This document shows positions 1,618 to 60,407 of a stretch of 64,000 nt of DNA, piece by piece. How positions within the stretch are numbered: the stretch's first letter is position 1; each line of letters opens with the position of its first letter. The stretch spans positions 62,001-126,000 of the IMG/VR virus record IMGVR_UViG_3300032116_000037; one strand, 5' to 3'. Made by a program: the position numbers and the translations under genes. Source of the DNA: a virus. The notes beneath the pieces were generated by a model that was not told the origin of the DNA, ran no database searches, and was given only the letters and a program-made list of their open reading frames with translations.

Positions 1618-1992
1618 ATGATTAGAATGACAGAATCTATGCTTAATAAATTAAGTAAAAAAGAATTAATACAGTTAATTCTAGATGCTCAAGAAGTAAA
1701 GGAAAAGGTTTATCCTCCTAATAAGGTTATAATTAATGAGCCTACTCAAATAATTAAACCTACACAGACTAAGCATGGTTCACAAGTATTAGCTCAAATT
1801 GATTATGATGATGTCCCTGTCGAAGTCGAGTGGAAAGAAGGCGCAAAACCTATTCCACGACGACCTTCTGATGAAACAACGTATATTTGTCGTAGATGTA
1901 CGACGAAGTTTAAAGCTAAAGCCGGACTGTTTGCTAAAGATAGAAATGAACCCATATGTAATAGGTGTATGAATGGAAGTGCTGGCGGATAG
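1618..1992 (+). CDS. Zinc-ribbon protein
   Basis: 124 residues. The C-terminal third has a CxxC-x18-CxxC zinc ribbon (YICRRCTTKF ... ICNRCMNG); the N-terminal half is a short helix followed by a proline- and threonine-rich linker. The start at 1618 follows GGAAG. The last 20 bases overlap the helicase gene. Zinc-ribbon proteins beside phage helicases often bind DNA or act as replisome or transcription adaptors; the specific role here is unknown. Confidence 0.65.
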   Translation: MIRMTESMLNKLSKKELIQLILDAQEVKEKVYPPNKVIINEPTQIIKPTQTKHGSQVLAQIDYDDVPVEVEWKEGAKPIPRRPSDETTYICRRCTTKFKAKAGLFAKDRNEPICNRCMNGSAGG

Positions 1993-3337
1993 TAATAGTG
2001 AACATTCCATAATTGGATGTTTAATTAAAAATGGTCCAGATGCATTTTTTGATTCTGCAGATATGCTGTCAATTAATACTTTTACAGACATCACAAATTC
2101 ATCTCTGTTTAAAATTATAAAAACTAGTTATGAAACTGATGTTAAAGTATTAGATGCCCCATTAATTTTGTCTTTAGCTAAACAAGAGAAATTAGATACT
2201 TTTATTAAAATAAAAGATATTAAAGATAAGATTAATACAGCTTGTGAATTATCTAGTTTACAATCTCTAGTGGCAAAAATTAGAAAGCTAGAAATAGCTA
2301 GAATTTTACATGATGAGCTTGAGAATAGAAGAAAAACAATAGAAGGTATTACTGGTGGCGAATCTATCAATAATATTTTAGCAAATATAGAATTTAATCT
2401 TGACTCATTATTTAATAATGTTAAACAAACTAAAAAGATGGGAGATGGGTTAAAAGCTAGGCTTAAAGAATTAGCTGACAATCCAGTAACGCAAGTCGGT
2501 TTATCTACTGGATATCCAATTTATGATGCAGCTATTGGCGGCGGATTAAGAGGAGGTTCAGTTAATGTTGTGGGCGCCAGAATAAAAGTAGGTAAAAGCC
2601 ATTTCTTAAATAATATAGCATTAAATACTTCGAAGAATAATATTAAAGTTCTTTATTTAGATACAGAGATGAAAACTGAAGAACAGGAAAATAGATGTGT
2701 ATCTAATTTAGCTGAAGTTGATATTAACTTAATTGAAACTGGTGTTTTTGGTGAAAAAGAGGCGACCGCTGCAAAAATATATGGGGCTGCTGATAAATTA
2801 ACAGAATTGCCTTATGAGCATATTAATGTTTCTGGTATGCCTTTTGAAGAGCAAATATCTATAATGTCTAGATGGTTAAGAAAAAACCAAGTAGTAAAAG
2901 ATGGTAAAGTAGCAGAATGTATCATTATTTATGATTATTTAAAATTAACTAGTTCAGACGGTATTAACTCCAATCTAGCAGAATATCAATTGCTGGGTTT
3001 TATGATTACTACTCTGCATAATTTATCTGTCAGATATGATATTCCTATTATGACGGCAGTTCAATTAAATAGAGATGGTATAGATAAAGAAAGTACTGGT
3101 GTCGCAGCTGGTTCTGATAGGATTCTTTGGTTGTGCTCTAATTTTTCTATATTTAAATTTAAATCTCCAGAAGAATTAGCATTAGACCCAATAGAAAATG
3201 GGAATAGAAAATTAGTTATTATGGCTGCGCGACACGGACCTGGCCTAAGTGAATTTGATTATATCAATTTCTTATTAGATACATATAAATGCAAATTAAT
3301 GGAAGGAAAGCTCAGGTCTCAGAATGTTAAAAAATAA
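1973..3337 (+). CDS. dnaB: DnaB-like replicative helicase
   Basis: 454 residues, the usual size for DnaB. The N-terminal domain (about 1-100) begins with the HSIIGCLIKNG segment that opens DnaB N-domains. The RecA-like motor follows: Walker A GARIKVGKSH (201-210), YLDTEM (motif H1a-like), Walker B strand CIIIYDYLKL (316-325), and a Q-loop region with MTAVQLNRDG. It would unwind duplex DNA 5'-3' ahead of the DnaE-type polymerase and recruit the primase encoded next. The start at 1973 follows AGGTG and overlaps the zinc-ribbon gene. The 3' end overlaps the primase start by 14 bases, an arrangement typical of phage helicase-primase pairs. Confidence 0.92.
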   Translation: MEVLADSNSEHSIIGCLIKNGPDAFFDSADMLSINTFTDITNSSLFKIIKTSYETDVKVLDAPLILSLAKQEKLDTFIKIKDIKDKINTACELSSLQSLVAKIRKLEIARILHDELENRRKTIEGITGGESINNILANIEFNLDSLFNNVKQTKKMGDGLKARLKELADNPVTQVGLSTGYPIYDAAIGGGLRGGSVNVVGARIKVGKSHFLNNIALNTSKNNIKVLYLDTEMKTEEQENRCVSNLAEVDINLIETGVFGEKEATAAKIYGAADKLTELPYEHINVSGMPFEEQISIMSRWLRKNQVVKDGKVAECIIIYDYLKLTSSDGINSNLAEYQLLGFMITTLHNLSVRYDIPIMTAVQLNRDGIDKESTGVAAGSDRILWLCSNFSIFKFKSPEELALDPIENGNRKLVIMAARHGPGLSEFDYINFLLDTYKCKLMEGKLRSQNVKK

Positions 3338-4343
3338 AGATTATATACCAAACATTATTGAGTTTTTTGGGCTAGATTTAAGATTATATGGAAATAAAAT
3401 GATAGGGTGTTGTCCAGTCCATAAAGGTGACAATAAAACAGCTTTTAATTTATGGCCGCGTTCTGGATTTTGGGTTTGTAGATCTCATAATTGCCATGAA
3501 GTTTTTGATAAAACTTTTGATGGCTTTTTAAAAGGGTTGTATGCAGCGAACTATAAAAATTGGGATGGAGGGGCAAGTATAGATATTTCTGATAAAGAAA
3601 TAGATACTTTTTATAATCAAATTATTAAAGGAAATGCTCCAACACCAATATCTATACAACCAACTATTATCAAAAAAACAAAACAATTCAAACCATTAAC
3701 AGTAGATTATTTTTTACGCAATCTTATATATCCATGCCCTTTCTTTTCTAAAAAATTCTCTGAAAAAATTATAAGAGATTTTAAAATTGGATATTGTAAT
3801 AATCCCAGATACCCAATGTTTGGGAGGAGCGTGGTCCCGATTATTGAAATGAATAAAGTAATCGGATATCAGGGGCGTTCTGTATTTGAACAGTGTAAAA
3901 AATGTTCTGGCTATCATCACCCAAATTCGATGTGCGGAGAATTTTTTGAAGGAAAATGGAAATTTAATCCAGGTTTTCATTCAAATAATCATCTTTTTAA
4001 CTATACTAATGTAGCGGTCGTCCAACCTAAAACGATCTTTCTTACCGAAAGCGTTGGTAATGTTTTTAGATTAATAGAATTTGGCATACCAAATGCGCTT
4101 GCAACTTTTGGGGCAAGATTCTCTCCTTACCAAGAAGATAAGGTTAGAATATTACAACCAGAACGTATAGTTTATATAAAAGATAAAGGTCCTGCTGGTG
4201 ATAAAATCAGCGATTTAATTAAAAAAATAACATGGGCAGAAGTAATTATCCCAGAATTAGAATATGAAGATGATGTAGCGGCAGTGACAAAAGAATATTT
4301 TCAGGATAAGTTGTTAAAAGATTTGATGGAATTAAATATATAA
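3324..4343 (+). CDS. DnaG-like DNA primase
   Basis: 339 residues, shorter than bacterial DnaG (about 580). The N-terminal CHC2-type zinc-binding domain has CC..H at 29-33 and Cys52/Cys57 after FWVCRSHNC. The TOPRIM core has its glutamate in FLTESVGN (E243), followed by YIKDKGPAGDK, a degenerate form of the usual DxD motif (only one Asp is clear). A second Cys cluster (C191, C194, C204) sits between the domains and may be an extra zinc knuckle. The C-terminal helicase-interaction domain seems to be missing or minimal. It would make RNA primers with the helicase encoded just upstream. Confidence 0.85.
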   Translation: MLKNKDYIPNIIEFFGLDLRLYGNKMIGCCPVHKGDNKTAFNLWPRSGFWVCRSHNCHEVFDKTFDGFLKGLYAANYKNWDGGASIDISDKEIDTFYNQIIKGNAPTPISIQPTIIKKTKQFKPLTVDYFLRNLIYPCPFFSKKFSEKIIRDFKIGYCNNPRYPMFGRSVVPIIEMNKVIGYQGRSVFEQCKKCSGYHHPNSMCGEFFEGKWKFNPGFHSNNHLFNYTNVAVVQPKTIFLTESVGNVFRLIEFGIPNALATFGARFSPYQEDKVRILQPERIVYIKDKGPAGDKISDLIKKITWAEVIIPELEYEDDVAAVTKEYFQDKLLKDLMELNI

Positions 4344-4344
4344 T

Positions 4345-5094
4345 ATGATTATAGCATTCTCTGGAAGAAAAACCGCAGGAAAAAATACATGCGGTAATTA
4401 TGTTCTAGGCACTATTTTATGGATGTCTGGAGTAGTAAAAAATACTTATAAGATAAGTGATAAAGGTGATTTATTAATATCTGATATTTTTGGCGACACG
4501 TCAAAAAATGGAGTATTTGATTTAAAATTAGAATCCCCGTCTTTCCAAGATTTTTTAAATAAGGAAGTCTATCCAATAGTTAAAGTATATAGCTTTGCTG
4601 ATCCATTAAAGGAGATGTGTAGAGATATATTTGGATTAGACCCTCATTTATTGTGGGGCAGTAATGAACAAAAAAATACCTCAACTAATTTAAAATGGGA
4701 AGACGTGCCAACTAAAACTTCTAAAAAAGGCTATATGTCTGTTAGAGAAGTATTAGAATACGTTGGTACTGATTTATTTAGAACAATGTATCAAAACGTG
4801 TGGTGCGATGCTTTAATAAGAAAAATTAAAAATGACAATAGTATGTTCGCAATTATTACTGATGCGCGTTTTGAAAATGAATTTGAGGCCATCCAAAATA
4901 ATGGTGGAAAAGTAATAAAATTGACCAGAGGAATAGCTGGTGAGAAAAACGATGTAGATAAATATGAAAATTATGACTATATAATCGATAATAAAAATTT
5001 AACAATACCACAACAAAATTTAGAAATAGATAAGATTCTTCAAGAAATTAGATTGCATAACTTATTTGGAATAAAGCAAAATGTATATAACTAG
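4345..5094 (+). CDS. Deoxynucleoside monophosphate kinase
   Basis: 249 residues, resembling phage dNMP kinases (T4 gp1 family). The P-loop is GRKTAGKNT (7-15). Other family segments are FADPLKEMCRDIFGL, an LLWGSNEQK substrate-lid region, REVLEYVGTDLFR, and ITDARFENEFEAIQ near the end. It phosphorylates dNMPs to dNDPs, supplying precursors with ThyX encoded 4 kb downstream. The start is 1 base after the primase stop, so the two are probably co-translated. The last 14 bases overlap the nuclease gene. Confidence 0.88.
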   Translation: MIIAFSGRKTAGKNTCGNYVLGTILWMSGVVKNTYKISDKGDLLISDIFGDTSKNGVFDLKLESPSFQDFLNKEVYPIVKVYSFADPLKEMCRDIFGLDPHLLWGSNEQKNTSTNLKWEDVPTKTSKKGYMSVREVLEYVGTDLFRTMYQNVWCDALIRKIKNDNSMFAIITDARFENEFEAIQNNGGKVIKLTRGIAGEKNDVDKYENYDYIIDNKNLTIPQQNLEIDKILQEIRLHNLFGIKQNVYN

Positions 5095-6997
5095 TATGTC
5101 TCCCTCTTCTTATAATGTTGTTGATGAGTGCCAAATGAAGTATTTCATTGGTAATATTTTAAGAATTAGAGAGCCTGAAAAAATTGCTGCTGAAAAAGGC
5201 ACCTTCATCCATGAGTATTTAGAAATACTAGCGCTGTATAAGAAAGCTCATCAAGAAGGTTTACAGACAGTTAGTAACGGCTATCATGAAGTAGAAGTTG
5301 TCCCACCAGATGAAATCGATACTCAAGCTTTGTTTGATATGTTAAAAGCAAACTTTAAGTATAAAAATACTTTTTCTGATAAAGATTATAAAGAATGCAG
5401 GGCTTCAATAGATACTGTTTTAGCTTCTTCAGAAGACCCTAGAAAATTAGAAATAGTAGAAACAGAGCATAAATTCTCTCTAGAAATAGATGAGCCTTGG
5501 GCTAACTATTATCATGAAACAGATAAGGGTATAGAAAAAGGTAAATATAAAATTAATGGTATCATTGACTTAATTACTAAAGTTGATGATGATACATATA
5601 AATTTATAGACTGGAAGCACTTACCTATAAATACCAAGATTCCAACTATAGATGGTTGGACTACTATGGGAAAAGTAAAAGTTGGCGACACTTTATTTGA
5701 TAAAGACGGCAATCCAACAAAAGTCTTAGGTAAATCAAAAACAAAAGTAAAACCATGTCTAAAGATTAAGTTCGATGATAAAACTGAAGTAATATGTTCT
5801 GAAGAACATTTATGGACTCTTGCTGATGGTTCTGTAAAAATGGCTTGCGAATTAAATTATAGAGATGAGATTCCAGTAGCTAAACCTTTACAGTTAAAAG
5901 ATATAGAATTGCCTATAGACCCATATTTACTTGGTGCTTGGCTTGGAGATGGTAGAAACAGGTCTTGCGAACTCACCAGCGGGGATTTGCAAGTTTTTAC
6001 TAAATTAAGACATAAAGAATTTAAATTAGGTAAAAATTTAGAAAAAAGAACTGATACTTATGAAACTAGAACCGTTTTAAATCAGACAGATAAGTTTAGA
6101 AAACTTGGGCTGCTAAATAATAAACACATTCCTAAAATTTATTTTCGCGCATCTGTTAAGCAAAGACTTGAGTTGCTTCAAGGTTTGATGGATACAGATG
6201 GTAATATAAATAGAGGTAGAAAACAAGCTGTTTTTACTAACTGTAGGAAAAGACTTTCTAGTGATGTAAAGGCATTATTATTAACTTTGGGCCAGCGCCC
6301 TAATATGTCTAAAATTCATAGAGATACTATCTTTAAAAAAGATATAACTGTATATCCTATAGCTTTTAGACCAATAGGTATTAATCCTTTTTCTCTTAAA
6401 AGGAAAAGTCCTGACCCTTCTTGGGGTTCTGGCAATTCTTCTGTGCGTAGAATAGTATCTATTACTAAACTTCGTAAGAATAGAGAAGTCTGTTGTATTT
6501 TAGTTGATAGTCCAAGTAATACATTCTTATGCACTAAGAATATGATACCTACACACAATTCTGGCAGTAGAAAAGATTGGATTACTGGCGAGATTAAAGA
6601 TTATGATAAATTATATAATGATATTCAGTTAAATATTTATCATTATTGTTTGCGTAGATTATATCCACAGACAAAGAATTTTATTGTTACAATTTTCTAT
6701 ACTAAAGATGGTGGGCCGTTTGATTTAGTTTTTGAAGAGAAAAATGCTCAAGAAACTTTAGAGCGTTTGAAAAAGCAATTTAGAAAAATATCAGAAATAG
6801 AAATTCCAAAATTAAGTAGGACTTGGAAATGTAAAAATTTCTGTTATTATAGCAAACTCAAGTTAGATAATGCTCCAAACGAGTTTAGAAAAAATCAATT
6901 AGATGAAATGGGCGCCCCTATGTGCGCGTGCAGTCATTTACATGAATTAGTTAAGTTAAATGGTACTTCACAAATTATAAAGGATTTTAAAAAGTAA
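5081..6997 (+). CDS. RecB/Cas4-like PD-(D/E)XK exonuclease interrupted by an intein
   Basis: The 638-residue precursor has two extein parts (1-179 and 494-638) that join to a 324-residue nuclease. Extein motifs of the RecB/Cas4 family: MSPSSYNVVDECQMKYF at the N-terminus, GTFIHEYLE (motif I), IIDLI (motif II), and the catalytic IDWK, which becomes IDWKSG after splicing (motif III). C17 plus C-terminal Cys residues (CKNFC and CAC) could hold an iron-sulfur cluster as in Cas4/AddB; this is inferred. The intein sits immediately after catalytic Lys179, so the unspliced protein should be inactive. The mature enzyme would process DNA ends for recombination. It overlaps the dNMP kinase gene and abuts the OB-fold gene. 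Confidence 0.88.
   Translation: MYITSMSPSSYNVVDECQMKYFIGNILRIREPEKIAAEKGTFIHEYLEILALYKKAHQEGLQTVSNGYHEVEVVPPDEIDTQALFDMLKANFKYKNTFSDKDYKECRASIDTVLASSEDPRKLEIVETEHKFSLEIDEPWANYYHETDKGIEKGKYKINGIIDLITKVDDDTYKFIDWKHLPINTKIPTIDGWTTMGKVKVGDTLFDKDGNPTKVLGKSKTKVKPCLKIKFDDKTEVICSEEHLWTLADGSVKMACELNYRDEIPVAKPLQLKDIELPIDPYLLGAWLGDGRNRSCELTSGDLQVFTKLRHKEFKLGKNLEKRTDTYETRTVLNQTDKFRKLGLLNNKHIPKIYFRASVKQRLELLQGLMDTDGNINRGRKQAVFTNCRKRLSSDVKALLLTLGQRPNMSKIHRDTIFKKDITVYPIAFRPIGINPFSLKRKSPDPSWGSGNSSVRRIVSITKLRKNREVCCILVDSPSNTFLCTKNMIPTHNSGSRKDWITGEIKDYDKLYNDIQLNIYHYCLRRLYPQTKNFIVTIFYTKDGGPFDLVFEEKNAQETLERLKKQFRKISEIEIPKLSRTWKCKNFCYYSKLKLDNAPNEFRKNQLDEMGAPMCACSHLHELVKLNGTSQIIKDFKK
5618..6559 (+). mobile_element. 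Intein with LAGLIDADG homing endonuclease, class 3 features
   Basis: 314 residues, in frame within the nuclease gene. The N-block HLPINTKIPTIDGW is the usual CLPxxTxxPTxxGW start, but residue 1 is His instead of Cys or Ser. Block B gives SEEHLW (His64, Trp66). The endonuclease domain has LLGAWLGDG (Asp111) and LLQGLMDTDG (Asp194), both intact. Block F has VCCILVD with Cys293 at position F:4. Block G is MIPTHN followed by Ser+1. No nucleophile at position 1 together with Trp B:12, Cys F:4 and Thr G:5 is the signature of class 3 inteins, in which the block F Cys attacks the N-terminal junction. Boundaries are supported by the restored IDWKSG active site. Confidence 0.9.
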
Positions 6998-9336: not shown

Positions 9337-10014
9337 TTGAAAAATTCAGTTGAATTATTAGGCTATTATGGTTCAGATGAAGTAATAGCTTGTAGCGCTT
9401 GGACTTCTACTAATCGTGAATTGACAGATGAAAAACGTGAGCGCATACCAAAGTTAATAAAAATGCTTTGGGAAAATGGCCATGAAACTCCTTTTGAAAA
9501 AGGCTCGGTCCATTTTCTAGTAAATTGTGATATAGCATCACATATTCATCTATTAAAACATAGAATTAGTAGCCTAAACGCTGAGTCTGCCCGATACAAA
9601 GAGTTAAAAGAAGATAAGTATTACTTGCCGGAAGATTGGAATAATATTAAAATATCACATTTAGATCTTGGCTCTCCATCAGACAGTTGGATAGATAGGT
9701 TAAAAGAATATACCGAAGAAGGAAATAGATTATATCATAAATGTCTTGAAGACCTAACGCCAGTTCTTGGTCGCAAGCGAGCAAAAGAATCGGCCCGTTT
9801 CTTCAAAACATACAACAGTCAGATTCAGGCCGATATAATGTTTAACATGCGCAGCTTTGCGAATTTCTTAAAATTAAGAAGATGCGAACACGCTCAGTTA
9901 GAGATTAAAATGATAGCCGATGAAATGTATAATATGGTTAAAAATATTGAAGGGCAGCCTTTTAAACATACTTTAGATGTTTGGGCTCAGACTGGGGTTA
10001 TTAAAAACATATAA
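9337..10014 (+). CDS. thyX: FAD-dependent thymidylate synthase ThyX
   Basis: 225 residues, typical of ThyX. It methylates dUMP to dTMP using methylenetetrahydrofolate, NADPH and FAD. The ThyX signature is present as KHRISSLNAES (74-84); the first Arg of the canonical RHRxxSxNxxS is Lys. The ETPFEKGSVHF segment and the C-terminal arginine-rich MRSFANFLKLRR region match the family. The start is TTG at 9337, placed 6 bases after AAAGG; no closer ATG would keep the conserved N-terminus. Together with the dNMP kinase it supplies dTTP for an AT-rich genome. Confidence 0.9.
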   Translation: MKNSVELLGYYGSDEVIACSAWTSTNRELTDEKRERIPKLIKMLWENGHETPFEKGSVHFLVNCDIASHIHLLKHRISSLNAESARYKELKEDKYYLPEDWNNIKISHLDLGSPSDSWIDRLKEYTEEGNRLYHKCLEDLTPVLGRKRAKESARFFKTYNSQIQADIMFNMRSFANFLKLRRCEHAQLEIKMIADEMYNMVKNIEGQPFKHTLDVWAQTGVIKNI

Positions 10015-10016
10015 TA

Positions 10017-11621
10017 ATGAAATATATACCTTTAAATTGTAAAACACATTATTCTGTAAGACAAGCGATGTCTAAACCCACAGATATCAAAACTAGATTA
10101 AATAAAATAGGTCTAGATTTGTGCGGTATTGCTGATTATAGTATTGTTAGCGGGGCGGTTAAATTTAAGGATTCAATCCCTAATGGTATTATAGGTACGG
10201 AAATTTGTGATTTAGCTGGAAATAAGACTTTAATATATGCTAAAAACTATGATGGTTGGAAGCAGTTGTTAAAAATTACTTCTGTAGCTAACAGTAAAAG
10301 CGATACTTGTCTTGACAGATATTTATTAGATGCGCTGATTACAAATGATTTACTAGTTATATATCTTTATGAGGAAAATAATCCTAAGCATAATTCTTAT
10401 TATGGTGTTGATTTAAACGCTGATAATTATGTTGAAATTAGAAGAATGGCTGCGGCAAAAAATAAAAAAACTGTCGCAGTTCATTCTTCTTTTTTCTCTT
10501 CTCCTGAAGATATAGAAGATTTTACAATATTATTATCTATCGCTCATAATATCTCTTCTGAGTTAGTAAGATCTGAATTTGCTGAAATCTATAATAAAAA
10601 GTATCATATCTTGTCTTATGAAGAAGCGTTAGAATATGGATACTTGGAACAGGAGTTGCAAAATACTCTAGAACTTGAGTTTGAAGAATATAAACTTAAC
10701 CGCAATCCTATGCTCCCAAAATTTACTGATAAAGGCGATTCAAGCGCTTTATTAAAACAAATTTGTGAAGAGAATTTAGTTGGAAAAGATGAAAGATACA
10801 AAAAACAACTAGATTATGAATTAGATGTTATAAATCAATACGGTTTAGCAGACTATTTCCTTATAGTTCAAGATGTTATTAAGTACACTAATACTAAACA
10901 TGGTATGTGTGGCATTAGAGGTTCTGGTGCTGGTTCAGTCATTTCATTTTTGTCTGGTATTACAGAAGTAGACCCAATTAAATATGGGTTATATTTTGAA
11001 AGATTTATTAATCCAGGTAGAATGTCTACTACCCATATTCAGCTTCCAGATATTGATATAGATGTCCCGGCTGAAGGGAGAGAGGACGTGATCGAATATA
11101 TTAAAGAAAAATATGGTAGAGATCGCGTAGGTCAAATTTTGACATACCAAAGAATTAAAACTCACGCCGCGTTAAAGGCGGTGTTCAGGTCTAATAATAA
11201 ATTAAGTTTTGATGAAGTCAATCAAATAACCAAGTTAATCCCAGACGAAGCTAAAGTAGCTGATAAATTAAAAGAGCATAACTATTCTTCACTTCTTTTG
11301 TATGCAATAGAAAATTCTCCTGAAGAATTCAGACAATGGGTTTATATTAATGATAGAGATGAAATTGATGGAGAATTTAAAAATGAGTTTAATCAAGCCC
11401 TTAGACTTGAAGGATTAAATTCTGCAAGATCAAAACATGCTGCCGGTGTAATTATAGGACAGGTGCCATTAGATGAAGTTTGCCCAATGATTTGGGACAA
11501 CTCAAGCAAATCTTTGATTTGCGGTATGGAAATGGGCGACCTTGAATCTTTAGGATGTATGAAATTAGACATTTTAGGTTTAAGACTGTTCGATAAATTA
11601 ATTGAAATCTTTGGAGAATAA
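10017..11621 (+). CDS. dnaE: DNA polymerase III alpha-like, N-terminal half (split DnaE)
   Basis: 534 residues covering the PHP-like domain and the first part of the polymerase palm. The nucleotidyltransferase region has GIRGSGAGSVISFLSG, the catalytic PDIDID (344-349), and the third carboxylate in MKLDILGLR (D518), 16 residues before the stop. The PHP domain is degenerate: the metal-binding HLHxHSxxS of DnaE is NCKTHYS here, so it has probably lost any nuclease activity. Translation ends just past the palm; the rest of the enzyme is encoded at 12475-13998. The two products must associate to form an active polymerase. The start is 2 bases after the thyX stop. Confidence 0.9.
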   Translation: MKYIPLNCKTHYSVRQAMSKPTDIKTRLNKIGLDLCGIADYSIVSGAVKFKDSIPNGIIGTEICDLAGNKTLIYAKNYDGWKQLLKITSVANSKSDTCLDRYLLDALITNDLLVIYLYEENNPKHNSYYGVDLNADNYVEIRRMAAAKNKKTVAVHSSFFSSPEDIEDFTILLSIAHNISSELVRSEFAEIYNKKYHILSYEEALEYGYLEQELQNTLELEFEEYKLNRNPMLPKFTDKGDSSALLKQICEENLVGKDERYKKQLDYELDVINQYGLADYFLIVQDVIKYTNTKHGMCGIRGSGAGSVISFLSGITEVDPIKYGLYFERFINPGRMSTTHIQLPDIDIDVPAEGREDVIEYIKEKYGRDRVGQILTYQRIKTHAALKAVFRSNNKLSFDEVNQITKLIPDEAKVADKLKEHNYSSLLLYAIENSPEEFRQWVYINDRDEIDGEFKNEFNQALRLEGLNSARSKHAAGVIIGQVPLDEVCPMIWDNSSKSLICGMEMGDLESLGCMKLDILGLRLFDKLIEIFGE

Positions 11622-11622
11622 T

Positions 11623-11811
11623 ATGGTCTTTAAAGAACTAGCAGTTGGTGATTTATTCACAACAAATAATAATCAAGATATAGTTTATAAAAAGATAGAG
11701 CCACAAAAAAGAAACCCAAGAGGGTGTGGTTGCGATAAGGTAAATGCTGAAAATACGGCCGATAATACAAGGTTGAAATTTTCAGATTTTATGACAGTGC
11801 AAAAGATATAG
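11623..11811 (+). CDS. Small hypothetical protein between the dnaE halves
   Basis: 62 residues from ATG 11623, preceded by GGAG 8 bases upstream; an in-frame TTG at 11602 would overlap dnaE. It begins VFKELAVGDLFTT and ends LKFSDFMTVQKI, a pattern seen in short phage proteins that open with FKxLxVGDxF. There is a GCGC motif in the middle. Not an intein or endonuclease by any motif I can see. Its position inside the split polymerase locus may be incidental. Confidence 0.6.
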   Translation: MVFKELAVGDLFTTNNNQDIVYKKIEPQKRNPRGCGCDKVNAENTADNTRLKFSDFMTVQKI

Positions 11812-11818
11812 GATAATT

Positions 11819-12502
11819 ATGGATAGTACAATAATAGTATTTGATTTTGAAACAACTCATTTGGACGCTGGAACCGCCGCGTGTGATGCAATAGAGTTGG
11901 CGGCTTGCGCGATTCACTCTAAAACTTTAGAAATTGTGAAAGACAGCGAATTTTTTGTAAATATTAGGCCAGATAATATAGAAGACCCAGATTATTACAA
12001 GAATCATAAGTCTACTATAGACTGGCATGTTGGTTTACAAAAAGGTAATACTGTAGATAGACTGATTGAAAAGTGGAAGGCTGGTACTCCTGAGAAACAA
12101 GCGTGGAAAATGTTCCATGATTATGTTAACCAGTATAATCACACTAAAACTTGGCGAACAGCGCCAATCGCAGCTGGTACAAATATTTCTGATTTCGATT
12201 TAAAGATTTATGATTATTTAAATCAAAAACATAAGATGAAACCTTGTTTTCATAAGAGGGATAAGATAGATATTAAAGATTTATGTTTTTATTGGTTCGC
12301 GTTTAATCCAGACCCACCAAAATCTTTTAAAATGGATGATTTAAGACCTTATTTTGCTCTTGGTACAGAAAAAGCTCATAATGCATTGTTTGACGTACAA
12401 CAAGAAGCAACTATTATATCTAATTTCTTAAAAGTGTTTAAGAAGTATGGTAAGCAAGTAACATTAAGAGGAATGTGCGGAAAAACTGCAAGCGCTTATT
12501 AA
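11819..12502 (+). CDS. DnaQ-like DEDDh 3'-5' exonuclease
   Basis: 227 residues. Exo I is FDFETTHLD (Asp-x-Glu), Exo II lies in AGTNISDFDLKIYDYL, and Exo III is KAHNALFDVQQEA with the His of the DEDDh subtype. This is the fold of the Pol III epsilon proofreading subunit. It lies between the two dnaE halves, so it very likely proofreads for that polymerase, whose PHP domain looks inactive. The start at 11819 follows GGATAA. The last 28 bases overlap the second dnaE half in another frame. Confidence 0.88.
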   Translation: MDSTIIVFDFETTHLDAGTAACDAIELAACAIHSKTLEIVKDSEFFVNIRPDNIEDPDYYKNHKSTIDWHVGLQKGNTVDRLIEKWKAGTPEKQAWKMFHDYVNQYNHTKTWRTAPIAAGTNISDFDLKIYDYLNQKHKMKPCFHKRDKIDIKDLCFYWFAFNPDPPKSFKMDDLRPYFALGTEKAHNALFDVQQEATIISNFLKVFKKYGKQVTLRGMCGKTASAY

Positions 12503-13998
12503 TAAATATTATGGAAATTGATTATAATTACGGACCTGCTTGGGATTTGATATGTTCCGGCAATACTATTGGTATTTTCCAATTAGAAAGTAGTATTGGC
12601 CAACATTATAGTAAACTTATTAAGCCAAGAAGTATAGAAGAATTGGCAGACGTTATCAGTCTAATTAGACCTGGTTGTCTTCAAGCATATATGGAAGATG
12701 GTAAAAATCTTACAGAACATTATGCAATGCGCAAGCATGGTCATGAAGAAGCCTCGTATCTAATTCCTCAATTAGAATCTGTATTGAAAGATACTTATGG
12801 TATCTTAGTATATCAAGAACAAGCAATTTCTATCGGTACAAAACTGGCTGGTTTATCTCCTGGCGATGCTGATTATTATATTAGAAAAGTCATCGGTAAA
12901 AAGAAAACTGATATGATAGAGCAAACTGTCAAGTTAATTCTAGATGGTTTTAAAAAGAATGGTATTAACGAGAAGAAAGGCTTAGAGTTAGTTAATTGGA
13001 TTAAAGCAGGTCAACGCTATTCGTTTAATAAGTCTCACGCAGTCGCGTTCGCATATCATTCATATAAATCAGCTTACGCAAAAGCTTTAAAGATGGAAAA
13101 GTTTTTCCAAGTTTATTTAAAGCACGCGAAGCATAAAATTAAACCGAAGATAGAAATTAGAAAGATAGTGCAAAATGCACGCGCCTCTGAAATAGATATA
13201 GGCCAGCCAGACATCAGACTTAAAAATAAAGAGTTTGATATTATTAATGGTAAAATTCATGTTGGCATAACTGATATAAAAGGTGTAGGAGATAGAATCT
13301 ATACTATCATAGAGCAGTCTGAGATACCAGACACTTGGTTTGGGTTTTTGACAAACTTGGCACCTAAATTAAAAAGCTCAGCAATTCCATTAATTCAAGC
13401 CGGATGTTGTGATTTCTATCATTTAGATAGGAAAAGAATGGAGTATGAGGTCAAGATTTTTGAGCGATTTTCGGATTTAGAAAAAAAGAAAATTAAAGAT
13501 TTAAGCAAGCCAGATTTACTTTCATCTGTATCTATGGCTGTTGATACTTTGAAATTAGCTAAAAATAGAAAAATTGTATTTGAGGCAGCTTTAAAGGATT
13601 TAGAACAACCGGCCTATACTTTAGAATATAGTTGCGAACAACTAGAAAAAATGGAAATTGACCTGATTGGCGCTCCTTTGTCTTGTACTAGATTAGATGG
13701 TAATATTAAAACAGCAGTAACAAATGTATACTGTATTGATGTTATAAAAGGAAATATTCCTAAAAAGGCTATTTTGGCTGGTATAGTTAGGGAGCCACGA
13801 TTTATCAAAACTAAAAAAGGTGATGATATGTGCTTCTTTAGTTTAGAAGATCATACAGGAACAGTATCAGATTTAGTTGCATTTAAAGAATGTGTGGAAG
13901 AATATAGATATAATATAGTTGAAGATTTAACTGTATTAGTTGAGGGCGTTAAATCAAATAAAGGAACTCTAATTATAAACAGAGTAATAGAAATATAA
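12475..13998 (+). CDS. dnaE: DNA polymerase III alpha-like, C-terminal half (split DnaE)
   Basis: 507 residues from a GTG at 12475 that follows AAGAGGA; an ATG at 12511 has no SD. The sequence resumes DnaE at the linker after the palm: NTIGIFQLESS, then the fingers (VISLIRPG, YQEQAISIGTKLAGLSPGDAD) and SFNKSHAVAFAYHSY. A helix-hairpin-helix follows (GITDIKGVGDRI), and the end is an OB fold (ILAGIVREPRFIKTKKGDD ... SDLVAF). There is no tau-binding domain. Both halves together give about 1,040 residues, close to a compact full-length DnaE. The SFNKSH motif, where cyanobacterial split DnaE inteins insert, is uninterrupted, so this split is of a different kind. Confidence 0.9.
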   Translation: MRKNCKRLLINIMEIDYNYGPAWDLICSGNTIGIFQLESSIGQHYSKLIKPRSIEELADVISLIRPGCLQAYMEDGKNLTEHYAMRKHGHEEASYLIPQLESVLKDTYGILVYQEQAISIGTKLAGLSPGDADYYIRKVIGKKKTDMIEQTVKLILDGFKKNGINEKKGLELVNWIKAGQRYSFNKSHAVAFAYHSYKSAYAKALKMEKFFQVYLKHAKHKIKPKIEIRKIVQNARASEIDIGQPDIRLKNKEFDIINGKIHVGITDIKGVGDRIYTIIEQSEIPDTWFGFLTNLAPKLKSSAIPLIQAGCCDFYHLDRKRMEYEVKIFERFSDLEKKKIKDLSKPDLLSSVSMAVDTLKLAKNRKIVFEAALKDLEQPAYTLEYSCEQLEKMEIDLIGAPLSCTRLDGNIKTAVTNVYCIDVIKGNIPKKAILAGIVREPRFIKTKKGDDMCFFSLEDHTGTVSDLVAFKECVEEYRYNIVEDLTVLVEGVKSNKGTLIINRVIEI

Positions 13999-15602
13999 TG
14001 GAAAAGAGAATATTATTATTAAATGAAGCCTCAATGTTTAATAGCGGGCTTGGTAAATATGGGAAGAATCTTTTATTTAAATTAAAAGAAAGAGGATATA
14101 AAGTCGCAGAGCTGGGTTTCGGCGCAGGTGTCAACCCTCCTAATGACCAAGATATTCCTTGGCGCACCTATTATAATGAGGTGCTAGATTCCGACCCAAG
14201 AAAGCAAGTTTATAATCAAGATCCAGATAATAGATTTGGTAAGTGGAGATTCGAAAAAACTCTACTTGATTTTAAACCACATTATGTTTTATCTATTTTA
14301 GACCCATGGAATACAATGTTTATTCCTAAGTCGCCTATGAGAAAGTATTTTAACTACATTTTTATGCCTACATTTGACTCCTTTCCAGTGAAAGAAGAGT
14401 GGATGTCTAGCATAGCCGATGCTGATAGAGTGCTTACTTATAGTGATTGGGCCGCTAAAAAGTGTCCGATACCTATATTTGGAACACCTAAATACGGCGT
14501 GAATGGATTAGAATTTTTCCCTGTGCAGAATAAGAAAATGCACAAGTCAAGATTTGGAATAAATTCCAATAAAACTATAATTGGAAGCATTATGAAAAAT
14601 CAACCTAGAAAAAAGATAGCTGATTTATTTAGAATGTATAAAATGATTCTAGATAAAAATCCTAATACTATGTTGTATTTACACGCGGAGTGGCCAGGTA
14701 AAAATCCTTGGAATATACCAAAGTTATTACTAGAGTATGAAATACAAAATCATGTATTATTAACATACTACTGTATTTCATGTGAAAAGTTTTATCCATC
14801 AGTATACCAAGGTGATTGCGCTCCATGCCAACATTGCTATAGAAATGCCGCTTATATAAAAAGCTCAGCATATTCTATATCTGACACTAGTTTTAATGAT
14901 ATATATAATCTTTTTGATTTATATGTACAATATTCTAATTCAGAAGGCGCGGGCATGCCAGTCGCGGAAGCTGCTTATTGTGGTTTGCCAACATTTGTTG
15001 TAGACTATACTGCAATGGAAGATTATAAAAATACTATAAGTTCTATTCCTTTACCAATATTAGATGATAGTTGGGATATGCAGATAGATGCTTATAGAGC
15101 TTTAGTTGATAATAAAAAATCTGCGGAAATTATTTTAGATTATATTGATAAAGGTAGCGATGTTCTTCAAGCTTGTGGAGATAGATCTAGAGCACAAGCT
15201 TTAGAAATATATAATTGGGATAGAGTTGCTGATGAATGGGAAAAGGCTATAGAGTCTATACCATTAAATGATAAATGGAATAATAAAATTGATTATATAA
15301 CAACTAAACTAGCAGATAATAGTTCTCCAACTGATATAGCTTTTTTTATAAAGAGAATTATGAAAATTAATGACCCAGTATCTTTATTAGGAATTCATGA
15401 GTCAGTTATTAATAAAGAAGTTGTTAATAAATATATGGTTAAAAATGATCCACAAAGAGTTGTTAAAGATTTAAATAATTGGATCGATTATTATAACAAA
15501 TGTGAAAATATAAGAACTGGGCTAGAAACTCAAATTGAAGAAGATTTTATAGAATATGCGCACGTAAAGGAAAAAGTCCATGAAGATAACAATATCTCTT
15601 GA
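13998..15602 (+). CDS. GT-B glycosyltransferase (GT4-like) with zinc-ribbon insertion
   Basis: 534 residues. The C-terminal Rossmann domain has the GT4 EX7E motif in NSEGAGMPVAEAAYCGLP (E316, E324), which binds the sugar nucleotide. A Cys cluster (C259, C262, C274, C277, C280) inserted before that motif looks like a zinc ribbon. The final 120 residues are helical with no clear domain. It would transfer a sugar from a nucleotide donor; the acceptor is unknown. The start overlaps the dnaE stop by one base, so the sugar genes continue the replication operon. Confidence 0.82.
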   Translation: MEKRILLLNEASMFNSGLGKYGKNLLFKLKERGYKVAELGFGAGVNPPNDQDIPWRTYYNEVLDSDPRKQVYNQDPDNRFGKWRFEKTLLDFKPHYVLSILDPWNTMFIPKSPMRKYFNYIFMPTFDSFPVKEEWMSSIADADRVLTYSDWAAKKCPIPIFGTPKYGVNGLEFFPVQNKKMHKSRFGINSNKTIIGSIMKNQPRKKIADLFRMYKMILDKNPNTMLYLHAEWPGKNPWNIPKLLLEYEIQNHVLLTYYCISCEKFYPSVYQGDCAPCQHCYRNAAYIKSSAYSISDTSFNDIYNLFDLYVQYSNSEGAGMPVAEAAYCGLPTFVVDYTAMEDYKNTISSIPLPILDDSWDMQIDAYRALVDNKKSAEIILDYIDKGSDVLQACGDRSRAQALEIYNWDRVADEWEKAIESIPLNDKWNNKIDYITTKLADNSSPTDIAFFIKRIMKINDPVSLLGIHESVINKEVVNKYMVKNDPQRVVKDLNNWIDYYNKCENIRTGLETQIEEDFIEYAHVKEKVHEDNNIS

Positions 15603-57172: not shown

Positions 57173-58789
57173 GTTATTTACTATAGTAGATAAGTAATTC
57201 TTAATATCGCCATTTGGCATATGATATACATCAAATATTTCTGGTTTATCCTTATAAATACCCGCAAAAATAGCCTCTTCTGTACCTATATATCCCATAC
57301 TTAAAGCTTTATCTAAAAAGTCATAAAAATAAGTATTTAATTCATTGATTGCATCTAACCCCCCTCCAAAAATACTAGCTCTTAATACTTTTAATGGAGT
57401 CGACTTGCAAAGTTTTTTGTACCCATCTTTTGAAAATCCATGAATTTCTGTGTATATGGGATAAGGATAAGATGCTATAAATAAATTATCTGTTTGTATT
57501 TTATTAAAGTCTACATCTTTTATAAAATTTATATTATAACTATTACATATACCAGAATCTATCCAAAAATATCTTTTTCCTTGAAAACAATACTTACTAT
57601 TATATACCGCATATTTTAAAAATTCTATTTTATGCAAGGTTAAAGATATATAGTCTGGATTAGTTATAACGCTATCATACATCCAACTAGATTGAGTTTT
57701 CCATTCTTTTGTATTTGTTATCTCAACAATCTTATTATGATAATACATTCTTCTTATATCATTTAAAGACCTAAAATGTACTATTGCTTTTTTTCCGCCA
57801 GTCATTGCGCTTATTTTTTCATAATATTTTTCATCAGCAAAAATAACAAGCGGAACGTTTGCCTCTAATAATTTCTGTAAACCATTTATATAATGATCTT
57901 CAAAACTTCTATTGTCTATTTTATCTCTATTAATATCTATTAAAGCAGTAACTAAAACATTTTCATATTCTGTATGATCTTTATCAGTGTTTCTAACTTG
58001 TAAAGCTAATTCATCATATTTATAATAATCTACCCAAGGTAAAGTTCTATTATTAGATAACTCTTTTGGAAAAAGTGTTTCTGGCGTAGTAATTTCATTT
58101 GGCCTTTTATTAACCATTATACTTTCATTATCGCCAGTATGTATCACACATTTTTTATTTAAATAAACACCTTTAAAACCAAGCCCAAAAAACTTCCTAT
58201 CTATATTCCATTCATTATAATATTTTTCTACACGCCCTAATAATATTAAATCTTCTCTTCTTTTAAGATTAGGACTCCCTTGCCAAATAAACCAATGAAA
58301 ATGATTTTTAGTTATACGCCAAGGCTTCTTATAATAAAAACTATTATCTATTAATTGATCTTCATAAGAATCAATACATTCTTCTTGAAAAGTTCTCCAA
58401 GAAATATCTATAGATCCTATATCTCTATATTTTTCTAAAATATCTTTTGATAGAGATAAATATCCTGTATCTATAAAATGCCAATCTTCTTCTAGATAAA
58501 AAATGTATTTGGTAGAGCAAAAAGATGTCATAAAATCTTGTGCCCACCAAAGACCGCGATTTTCTGGAAAGCAAATTATATCTGCTATTTCCCCGTATTT
58601 TTCGACTAATTTTTCAAAAACACCATCTATAGCGCTATCATCTACTATAACTATTTTTGTTATAATATCTCTAGTCCTAAGAAAAGACTCCATCGTTTTT
58701 TCTAACAAATGGAGTCTATTGCAACTTAAGACATATGTAGTGATTTCACTCTCTGGTTGATCAATAGTATGTATTTTAATTTTAGACAC
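57164..58789 (-). CDS. Glycosyltransferase (GT2-like) fused to HtrL/YibB-like domain
   Basis: 541 residues, two domains. Residues 1-275 are GT-A-like: TTYVLSCNRLHLLEKTMESF, IVIVDDSAIDG, and FYLEEDWHFID with an EED donor site. Residues about 278-540 match the HtrL/YibB family: VLVTALIDINRDK, then LQKLLEANVPLVIFADEKYY, and LTLHKIEFLKYAVYNSKY followed by RYFWIDSGICN. HtrL/YibB-type proteins are GT-like enzymes of surface-glycan clusters. It may act on a virion or cell-surface glycan. It overlaps the next gene by 8 bases. Confidence 0.78.
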   Translation of the reverse strand: MSKIKIHTIDQPESEITTYVLSCNRLHLLEKTMESFLRTRDIITKIVIVDDSAIDGVFEKLVEKYGEIADIICFPENRGLWWAQDFMTSFCSTKYIFYLEEDWHFIDTGYLSLSKDILEKYRDIGSIDISWRTFQEECIDSYEDQLIDNSFYYKKPWRITKNHFHWFIWQGSPNLKRREDLILLGRVEKYYNEWNIDRKFFGLGFKGVYLNKKCVIHTGDNESIMVNKRPNEITTPETLFPKELSNNRTLPWVDYYKYDELALQVRNTDKDHTEYENVLVTALIDINRDKIDNRSFEDHYINGLQKLLEANVPLVIFADEKYYEKISAMTGGKKAIVHFRSLNDIRRMYYHNKIVEITNTKEWKTQSSWMYDSVITNPDYISLTLHKIEFLKYAVYNSKYCFQGKRYFWIDSGICNSYNINFIKDVDFNKIQTDNLFIASYPYPIYTEIHGFSKDGYKKLCKSTPLKVLRASIFGGGLDAINELNTYFYDFLDKALSMGYIGTEEAIFAGIYKDKPEIFDVYHMPNGDIKNYLSTIVNNGV

Positions 58790-60407
58790 GTTTTAACACC
58801 ATTAAATTATTAACAAACCAACCCATATAATATCCTTGAGTAACATGATTAATAATAGAATTTTCTATATCATAATCTCTCTCAAAACCTTCTTTTTTAA
58901 ATTTCTCTTGCCAGTATTCTTTAGGTTGACAATTAATATGGCCTGTTCCACCTTGCCCAGGTTTTGCGGCAGTCCATATGACTACACCACCACTAGCAAC
59001 ATTTTTACAAACTGTTTTAACAACATTATCAGATAATTTTTCATGTATATGTTCAGCAACTTCTAAGCACATAACAATATTTCCAAGATCATTAACTGAA
59101 AATAGATCTGCGTGTATTAAATTTGGCTTTCCTTTTACTTTAGGATCTATATCATAACCTATTGCGTTAAAATCTTGATCTCTTAAAGCGTTAACATAAG
59201 TCCCTAAACCACAACCTAGATCAATAATTTTAGCATCTGGAATTGCGTGTTGTTTTATCCAAACAGCTAAATTTTCTGCAAAAGGTTTTTCTTCTTTATC
59301 TATTTGTTCTAAATCACAGTTTTCACTAATCTGATACCACCCATTTCCAGTGTAAACATTCATTATATCGTTAAAATATTTTTCATATTTTGGCGCTATG
59401 TTTTCTAAAGAAAATTTCTCCCCTTGTTTTCTGCAGTCGGCAGGATTAATTTTATCTATATTAAGTGCGGCATTTACAAAATCTTCAAATGTTCTACATC
59501 TATAGCCAGTAACTCCTTCTATATTATTCTCGCTGAAGGCTCCCCAGTCTGTTGTAATAGTTGGGGTTCCGCATAATAAATTCTCTATTTGGACTCCGCC
59601 AAATGGCTCTACATACATACTAGGTAAAAAACTACCTTTAGCATTTTTCATTAATTCTTTTCTTTTATTTATATCTGCATAACCAACATATTCACAATGA
59701 GGTGGTAAATAATAACCCTCTTCTTTTTGTCCAGCTATAATAAGTTTTGCGCCTATTTTTTCTGTAACTTGAATAGCTATATTTACGCCTTTACCATCAT
59801 AAACTCTTCCTAAATAAAGAAAATAATCTTGTTTTTTATCTGAATACTCAAATTCGTCTAAATCAAAATAATTAGGAATAACTACATCATACCAACTCTG
59901 TCTGCATTCTCCAACATTTTTAAGGCCGCAATAAGCATGATAGATCGCATAAGACTCAAAAACTTTCCAGTTGGCCCAATGGCCTGCTGCATAACCTATC
60001 CCAGGTTCTACACAAATTAAGTCCGAATGAGCATCGCATATTGGCTTAACACCTTGACCCCAAAAAGGTAAAATAAAATCTAGTGGTTGTTTTCTTTTTT
60101 CTATTTCTAAAATAGCGTTTTTATAGAAAGTTTGATAAGCATGATCCATGGTATCAAATTTAAAGAAATTTTTCCGCCAATCATAACTTCCATAAGCTAT
60201 TTCTAAATCTTTGTTAGTAGTTACAGTTACATGCTCATCACAAATCAGATTAGATTCCTCATGGCCATAATGTATTATATGATGACCACGGGCCTTCATC
60301 ATTTTACCAAATTTTAAAACCTTCTGAGTGTATGCACAAGCGGAATATTCTGGATTTGTAACTGTGTGTGGCAAACCCAATATGTGAAAACGAAATTTTT
60401 TACTCAT
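58782..60407 (-). CDS. GT4 glycosyltransferase fused to SAM methyltransferase
   Basis: 541 residues. The first ~350 are a GT-B enzyme with FLYLGRVYDGKGVNIAI and the EX7E donor loop in VEPFGGVQIENLLCGTP (E267, E275). From about 360 a class I methyltransferase follows: IIDLGCGLGTYVNAL (motif I near 396), YDIDPK, then NIVMCLEVAEHIHE and TAAKPGQGGTGHIN. A single chain could add a sugar and methylate it, as in capping of a chain. The AAGGA SD is followed by a GC-rich spacer (CGCGCG). It lies in the virion-gene operon. Confidence 0.85.
   Translation of the reverse strand: MSKKFRFHILGLPHTVTNPEYSACAYTQKVLKFGKMMKARGHHIIHYGHEESNLICDEHVTVTTNKDLEIAYGSYDWRKNFFKFDTMDHAYQTFYKNAILEIEKRKQPLDFILPFWGQGVKPICDAHSDLICVEPGIGYAAGHWANWKVFESYAIYHAYCGLKNVGECRQSWYDVVIPNYFDLDEFEYSDKKQDYFLYLGRVYDGKGVNIAIQVTEKIGAKLIIAGQKEEGYYLPPHCEYVGYADINKRKELMKNAKGSFLPSMYVEPFGGVQIENLLCGTPTITTDWGAFSENNIEGVTGYRCRTFEDFVNAALNIDKINPADCRKQGEKFSLENIAPKYEKYFNDIMNVYTGNGWYQISENCDLEQIDKEEKPFAENLAVWIKQHAIPDAKIIDLGCGLGTYVNALRDQDFNAIGYDIDPKVKGKPNLIHADLFSVNDLGNIVMCLEVAEHIHEKLSDNVVKTVCKNVASGGVVIWTAAKPGQGGTGHINCQPKEYWQEKFKKEGFERDYDIENSIINHVTQGYYMGWFVNNLMVLKRV

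Follow-up and report, generated by a model that had tools for sequence, protein, structure and literature searches.

A replicative polymerase encoded in two genes

The 64,000-nucleotide stretch of viral DNA analysed here (the window; bases 62001-126000 of a 128,386 bp virus contig, IMG/VR record IMGVR_UViG_3300032116_000037) carries the parts of a C-family (DnaE-type) replicative polymerase in two separate genes. In all likelihood its catalytic subunit is permanently divided at the palm/fingers boundary into two chains, with an exonuclease encoded between them. The genes lie near end-to-end on the + strand in the order ThyX, DnaE N-half, a 62-amino acid (aa) open reading frame (ORF), DEDDh exonuclease, DnaE C-half, and glycosyltransferase. 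The N-half (10017..11621, 534 aa) covers PHP, palm, and thumb, as identified by Pfam, PHROGs, and conserved residues. The C-half (12511..13998, 495 aa from its ATG) covers the fingers, HhH, and OB-fold, as identified by Pfam, PHROGs, and a structural model. An initial annotation made from the DNA letters had already placed a 62-residue protein and a complete DEDDh exonuclease between the halves, and both the coordinates (11623..11811 and 11819..12502) and the five catalytic residues of the exonuclease bear this out.

The N-half matches PF07733 in Pfam (E=6e-66), while its PHP match is weak and below the cut-off in the window. All three catalytic Asp (equivalent to D401, D403, and D555 of E. 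coli) are present, and the protein terminates in ...MKLDILGLRLFDKLIEIFGE, about 14 residues past the third catalytic Asp motif, MKLDILG. The C-half matches the fingers family PF17657 (E=1e-35) as well as HHH_6 and OB, and starts about 20 residues ahead of GIFQLESS; a GTG at 12475 is a possible alternative start, less likely than the ATG at 12511. A cut just after the third palm Asp and resumption at the fingers segment, as first annotated, are therefore both correct. In PHROGs both halves match a single phage DNA polymerase family, phrog_405, whose profile has 1190 positions: the N-half covers 229-606 and the C-half 626-1058. Mapped onto E. coli alpha with profile alignments against solved structures, the break lies just past D555, where palm gives way to fingers, with about residues 565-576 on one side and 581-584 on the other. 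Modelled on its own with AlphaFold2, the window C-half has a mean pLDDT of 95 and matches Pol III alpha structures (E 5e-22; TM 0.71 to 7pu7).

Read across both halves, the domain order is that of DnaE: PHP, palm, thumb, fingers, HhH, and OB. Domains, domain order, and catalytic residues are thus shared with DnaE1-type Pol III alpha (E. coli 2HNH/5FKU, Taq 2HPI/3E0D, and M. tuberculosis 7PU7). However, the latter is one chain, and the window locus departs from this single-polypeptide trait of the C-family enzymes in having two polypeptides with an exonuclease gene between. The N-half would contribute the catalytic metal site along with PHP, palm, and thumb; the C-half would add HhH, OB, and the fingers, where template and incoming nucleotide are bound. 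One compact operon would yield both halves, which may then associate non-covalently where palm and fingers naturally meet. The textbook bacterial replicase has a single large catalytic chain; an entire clade of phages would here use two, cut at the doorway of the active site, and in a C-family polymerase palm and fingers could then be separate subunits over long evolution. Such a locus would also offer a ready-made split point for engineering. Annotation pipelines will tag each half as a truncated polymerase.

An N-terminal CxC...C extension of the C-half, possibly metal-binding, occurs in 91 of the 110 clusters of relatives described below (L133, L142, L005, and most others) and is absent in the window.

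Conservation of the split among phages

Viral contigs were scanned three times, with alignments of the N-half, the C-half, and the exonuclease, and about 235 further loci were obtained (numbered with the prefix L). The probes were built from split members and the best 80 matches per scan were kept. Many loci overlap or are near copies, and collapsing at 95% identity left 110 clusters with complete halves. The initial annotation had proposed a search of phage genomes for the same breakpoint; it was found, with the exonuclease interposed, in 237 of the 238 viral loci in which both sides of the break are visible. The breakpoint alone, with no exonuclease in the gap, arose independently in Rossellomorea phage phiT1. 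The sole fused locus, L011, is a distant relative. Even diverged relatives, at 34-37% identity, have the identical break and an exonuclease in the gap. A tree that also contained single-gene DnaE from phages and E. coli placed the 26 split-clade representatives in one group (SH-aLRT 100) on a long stem, with the window as a long branch at or near the base of the clade.

Equivalents of D401, D403, and D555 were found in 108-109 of the 110 clusters, the remainder being gaps. The median ratio of nonsynonymous to synonymous substitution rates (dN/dS) over independent pairs was 0.044 for the N-half, 0.037 for the C-half, 0.033 for the exonuclease, and 0.146 for the small protein, values that are rough given a dS near saturation. 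Judged from these comparisons, purifying selection acts strongly on each half (dN/dS about 0.04). Pairwise distances of the N-half and C-half are correlated at 0.95.

Several points weigh against a permanently two-chain polymerase. The correlation of 0.95 may be produced by shared ancestry alone. With split-member probes and only the best 80 matches per search, closely related fused forms could be missed, and the window, as a long branch, may be atypical. In addition, no conserved canonical clamp-binding motif was found in the C-half, a loose QxxPsiPhi pattern being present in just 14 of the 110 clusters, and no match to a beta-clamp gene was found in the contig.

On the reading of two permanent chains, the split would have arisen a single time, in the ancestor of this large clade of uncultured phages, and been stable since. 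Its likeliest origin would be an old insertion of DNA, possibly driven by a homing endonuclease, into the palm-fingers linker. HNH-motif or HTH-endonuclease-like ORFs are present in the gap in L010, L042, L137, L140, and L196 (in L042 and L196 by motif only, with no Pfam match). Other gap genes include uracil-DNA glycosylase ahead of the exonuclease in L095 (by Pfam) and in L180 and L051 (by sequence likeness), Cpn10 in L007, and, between exonuclease and C-half in some relatives, ThyX.

The phages with a split polymerase form a large, uncultured, mostly aquatic-looking group. Bacterial genomes gave two matches, both of them draft contigs of metagenome-assembled genomes with a viral appearance. 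Three contigs of the Lokiarchaeota draft genome JABXKB01 (L252, L271, and L272) bear the same cassette, and are probably viral contigs that were binned with that genome. DUF1559 pilin-like genes were found in 5 of 29 contigs tested, lying in the gap between exonuclease and C-half in L057, L065, and L074 and also present on the contigs of L091 and L047, and one DUF1501 gene was seen; none was found in the window contig. The DUF1559 and DUF1501 families are known mainly from Planctomycetota, and these genes are a possible clue to the host.

Error, intein, or intron

The first alternative to a true split is that a sequencing error, an assembly artefact, or the decay of a pseudogene has broken a normal gene. 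The 6 kb spanning the cassette and both junctions is 100% identical in independent IMG/VR contigs that come from other metagenomes, L002, L003, L008, and L009, and in L004 up to the end of that contig, which rules out an assembly or sequencing error. A recent frameshift or misassembly, which the initial annotation had named as the outcome that would overturn its claim, is excluded by these contigs together with the single well-supported clade of 110 clusters. Decay is at odds with the conservation of the split over these clusters and with a dN/dS of about 0.04. A frameshift-like break was seen in one cluster, L121, where it lies elsewhere in the N-half. The probability of this whole class of explanations is negligible.

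A hidden split intein might instead ligate the two finished chains, in the style of cyanobacterial DnaE. Inteins do occur at other polymerase sites in relatives. The C-half is broken again at SFNK|SH, the site of the cyanobacterial DnaE intein, in L012 (5365-8190) and L074 (12931-15826), where the pieces have split-intein ends and flank an endonuclease-like gene. Similarly, the N-half is broken at GRG|S with split-intein ends in L196 (2947-6089), which has a 272-aa ORF between the pieces, and in L112 (3757-6096), and an uninterrupted intein resides in the C-half of L007. At the palm/fingers break, however, the N-half of almost every cluster stops 12-30 aa past the Asp-x-Leu-Gly motif of the palm, and the C-half has at most tens of residues ahead of the fingers motif, which leaves too little space for an intein. 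Neither end contains an intein motif, and no IntN or IntC portion was found. In the window SFNKSH is uninterrupted within the C-half, so the break site differs from the cyanobacterial one, and the short N-half tail likewise agrees with the earlier statement that no intein is visible. Joining by an intein at this position is thus extremely improbable; as far as can be read from these sequences, trans-splicing is used at other polymerase sites of relatives, with none seen at the palm/fingers break.

Splicing of the region between the halves from the mRNA as an intron is also very improbable. Group I introns are frequent in phage polymerase genes, and in Enterocloster phage CB473P1 pieces of DnaE adjoin I-HmuI-type genes. 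Against this, Rfam at gathering thresholds gave no group I or group II intron match in the gap, the intervening DNA consists of two conserved genes under purifying selection, and each half has its own start and variable ends. Moreover, the gap tolerates insertions of several genes. In L057, L065, and L074 kilobases of DNA bearing ThyX, DUF1559, DUF1501, and other genes separate the exonuclease and the C-half, an arrangement that splicing does not explain. With neither an intein nor a known intron at the break, and with halves kilobases apart in some relatives, the break would represent a permanent subunit boundary. The two-chain polymerase proposed in the initial annotation is therefore supported by the purifying selection, the catalytic motifs, the C-half model, and the want of an intron match or of space for an intein.

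The exonuclease and the 62-aa protein

The protein encoded ahead of the C-half is a predicted proofreading nuclease, a 227-aa DEDDh 3'-5' exonuclease. It matches RNase_T in Pfam (E=8e-7), and its best match in PHROGs is phrog_192, DNA polymerase exonuclease subunit. All five DEDDh catalytic residues are conserved in 110 of 110 clusters. Most of the clade retains the metal-site residues of the PHP domain (His and Asp at E. coli positions 10, 12, 83, 201, and 203), which are missing from the PHP domain of the window (10017-10800), where N, K, K, S, and F are found instead. With this metal site lost, any proofreading in this phage would be expected to depend on the DEDDh enzyme. The exonuclease is thus most likely, from its sequence and position, a proofreading subunit made from between the two halves, replacing the PHP metal site that the window phage has lost.

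A somewhat unlikely alternative is that the polymerase is genuinely split and the interposed gene is a general nuclease placed there by operon history. The best PDB profile matches of the exonuclease include Exo I and the PolC exonuclease, both weak, and it appears to be devoid of a long PHP-binding tail of the E. coli epsilon type. In Bacteroides phage DAC23 a distant homologue is located far from DnaE. When cultured phages were searched with the exonuclease probe, no cultured member was found, and the only matches, at 27%, were in Bacteroides phages whose DnaE is a single gene located elsewhere. This explanation is opposed by the interposition of the exonuclease in 237 of 237 split loci, by the polymerase-subunit identity of its best PHROG, and by its invariant catalytic residues.

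The presence of the 62-aa protein had been correctly noted in the initial annotation, which missed its conservation. A homologue lies between the N-half and the exonuclease in 86 of the 110 clusters (81 detected by script and 5 by inspection of coordinates), with the consensus FxxLxVGxxF...Y.KI...RVSCCKxxNA; the window version of the last motif is GCGCDKVNA. The remaining members have a different ORF of about 76 aa in that place, or none. AlphaFold2 produced a confident small beta-barrel, for which Foldseek against PDB returned nothing significant, only barrels resembling EF-P/eIF5A domains at E above 0.1. No Pfam match was found, and the PHROGs match, to PHROG 2183 of unknown function, is weak. 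The probable role of this SH3-like protein of about 60 aa is that of an accessory or assembly factor. The idea that it forms one composite site with the CxC extension of the C-half was rejected, as it receives no support from the tree.

Beyond a two-chain polymerase with a proofreading subunit, all four proteins might form an obligate replicase core in which the exonuclease and the SH3-like protein dock at the palm-fingers seam and help to hold the halves together. This arrangement, considered quite unlikely, would differ in geometry from E. coli alpha-epsilon, where epsilon sits on PHP, and from PolC, where the exonuclease is inserted in PHP.

Comparison with known split polymerases

In cultured phages DnaE is nearly always a single gene. 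Split phage DnaE genes are already deposited, broken at other sites and once at the same point. The latter case is phiT1 (gp20/gp18; PV767480), whose DnaE is cut at the identical palm/fingers point with a 49-aa ORF between. Its polymerase lineage lies outside the clade, however, the small ORF is unrelated, and there is no exonuclease between the pieces; by these sequence comparisons its split is convergent, an independent origin at the same point. Because the same breakpoint arose independently in phiT1, the palm-fingers linker is suggested to be a naturally permissive cut site.

Two annotated DnaE genes also occur in Microbacterium EF-cluster phages (Kate), Mycobacterium phage Weiss13, and Bacillus phage Jayan. 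There the break is at PHP/palm (Kate and Weiss13) or just ahead of the DxD motif (Jayan), and no exonuclease lies between the halves. In KLEB27-3, DnaE is interrupted by an HNH gene slightly downstream of the palm/fingers point, in CB473P1 it is in several pieces, and in Serratia phage KKP 3709 (L261) three or more successive DnaE fragments are each annotated as a polymerase gene.

Cyanobacterial split DnaE is likewise encoded by two genes, but these have another break site, split-intein ends, and a joined product, whereas no intein is found in the window polymerase. In 2009 Dassa and colleagues reportedly described fractured genes that combine split inteins with a homing endonuclease. Such genes, broken around other genes, resemble what is found at the other polymerase sites in L012, L074, and L196, in contrast to the intein-free palm/fingers break.

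In group 2.2 jumbo phages, a minimal Pol III alpha in two proteins is thought to reconstitute (Iyer et al., 2021; PMC7824862). This minimal split enzyme has no PHP or other domains, its genes are far apart, and a family B polymerase is also present (PMC7824862). The window differs in its full set of domains, its single operon, and its lack of PolB. In the part of the literature covered, no account of the present arrangement was found.

Genomic context

The contig contains a single N-half and a single fingers half, and no family A or family B polymerase was found in it. Directly upstream of the N-half is the ThyX thymidylate synthase (9337..10014, +), and a glycosyltransferase gene (13998..15602, +) starts at the stop codon of the C-half; L005 and L010 likewise have a homologue of this glycosyltransferase downstream of their C-half. 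A replication region on the same strand encodes a DnaB-like helicase (1973-3334), a primase (3324-4340), and a dNMP kinase (4345-5091). Next to it (5081-6994, +), an intein with a LAGLIDADG domain lies inside a PD-(D/E)XK nuclease, and a homologous nuclease upstream of the N-half in L007 is also intein-bearing. Lastly, a glycosyltransferase-methyltransferase is encoded at 58785-60407 (-), the first 362 aa of which are 75% identical to Synechococcus phage ACG-2014f.

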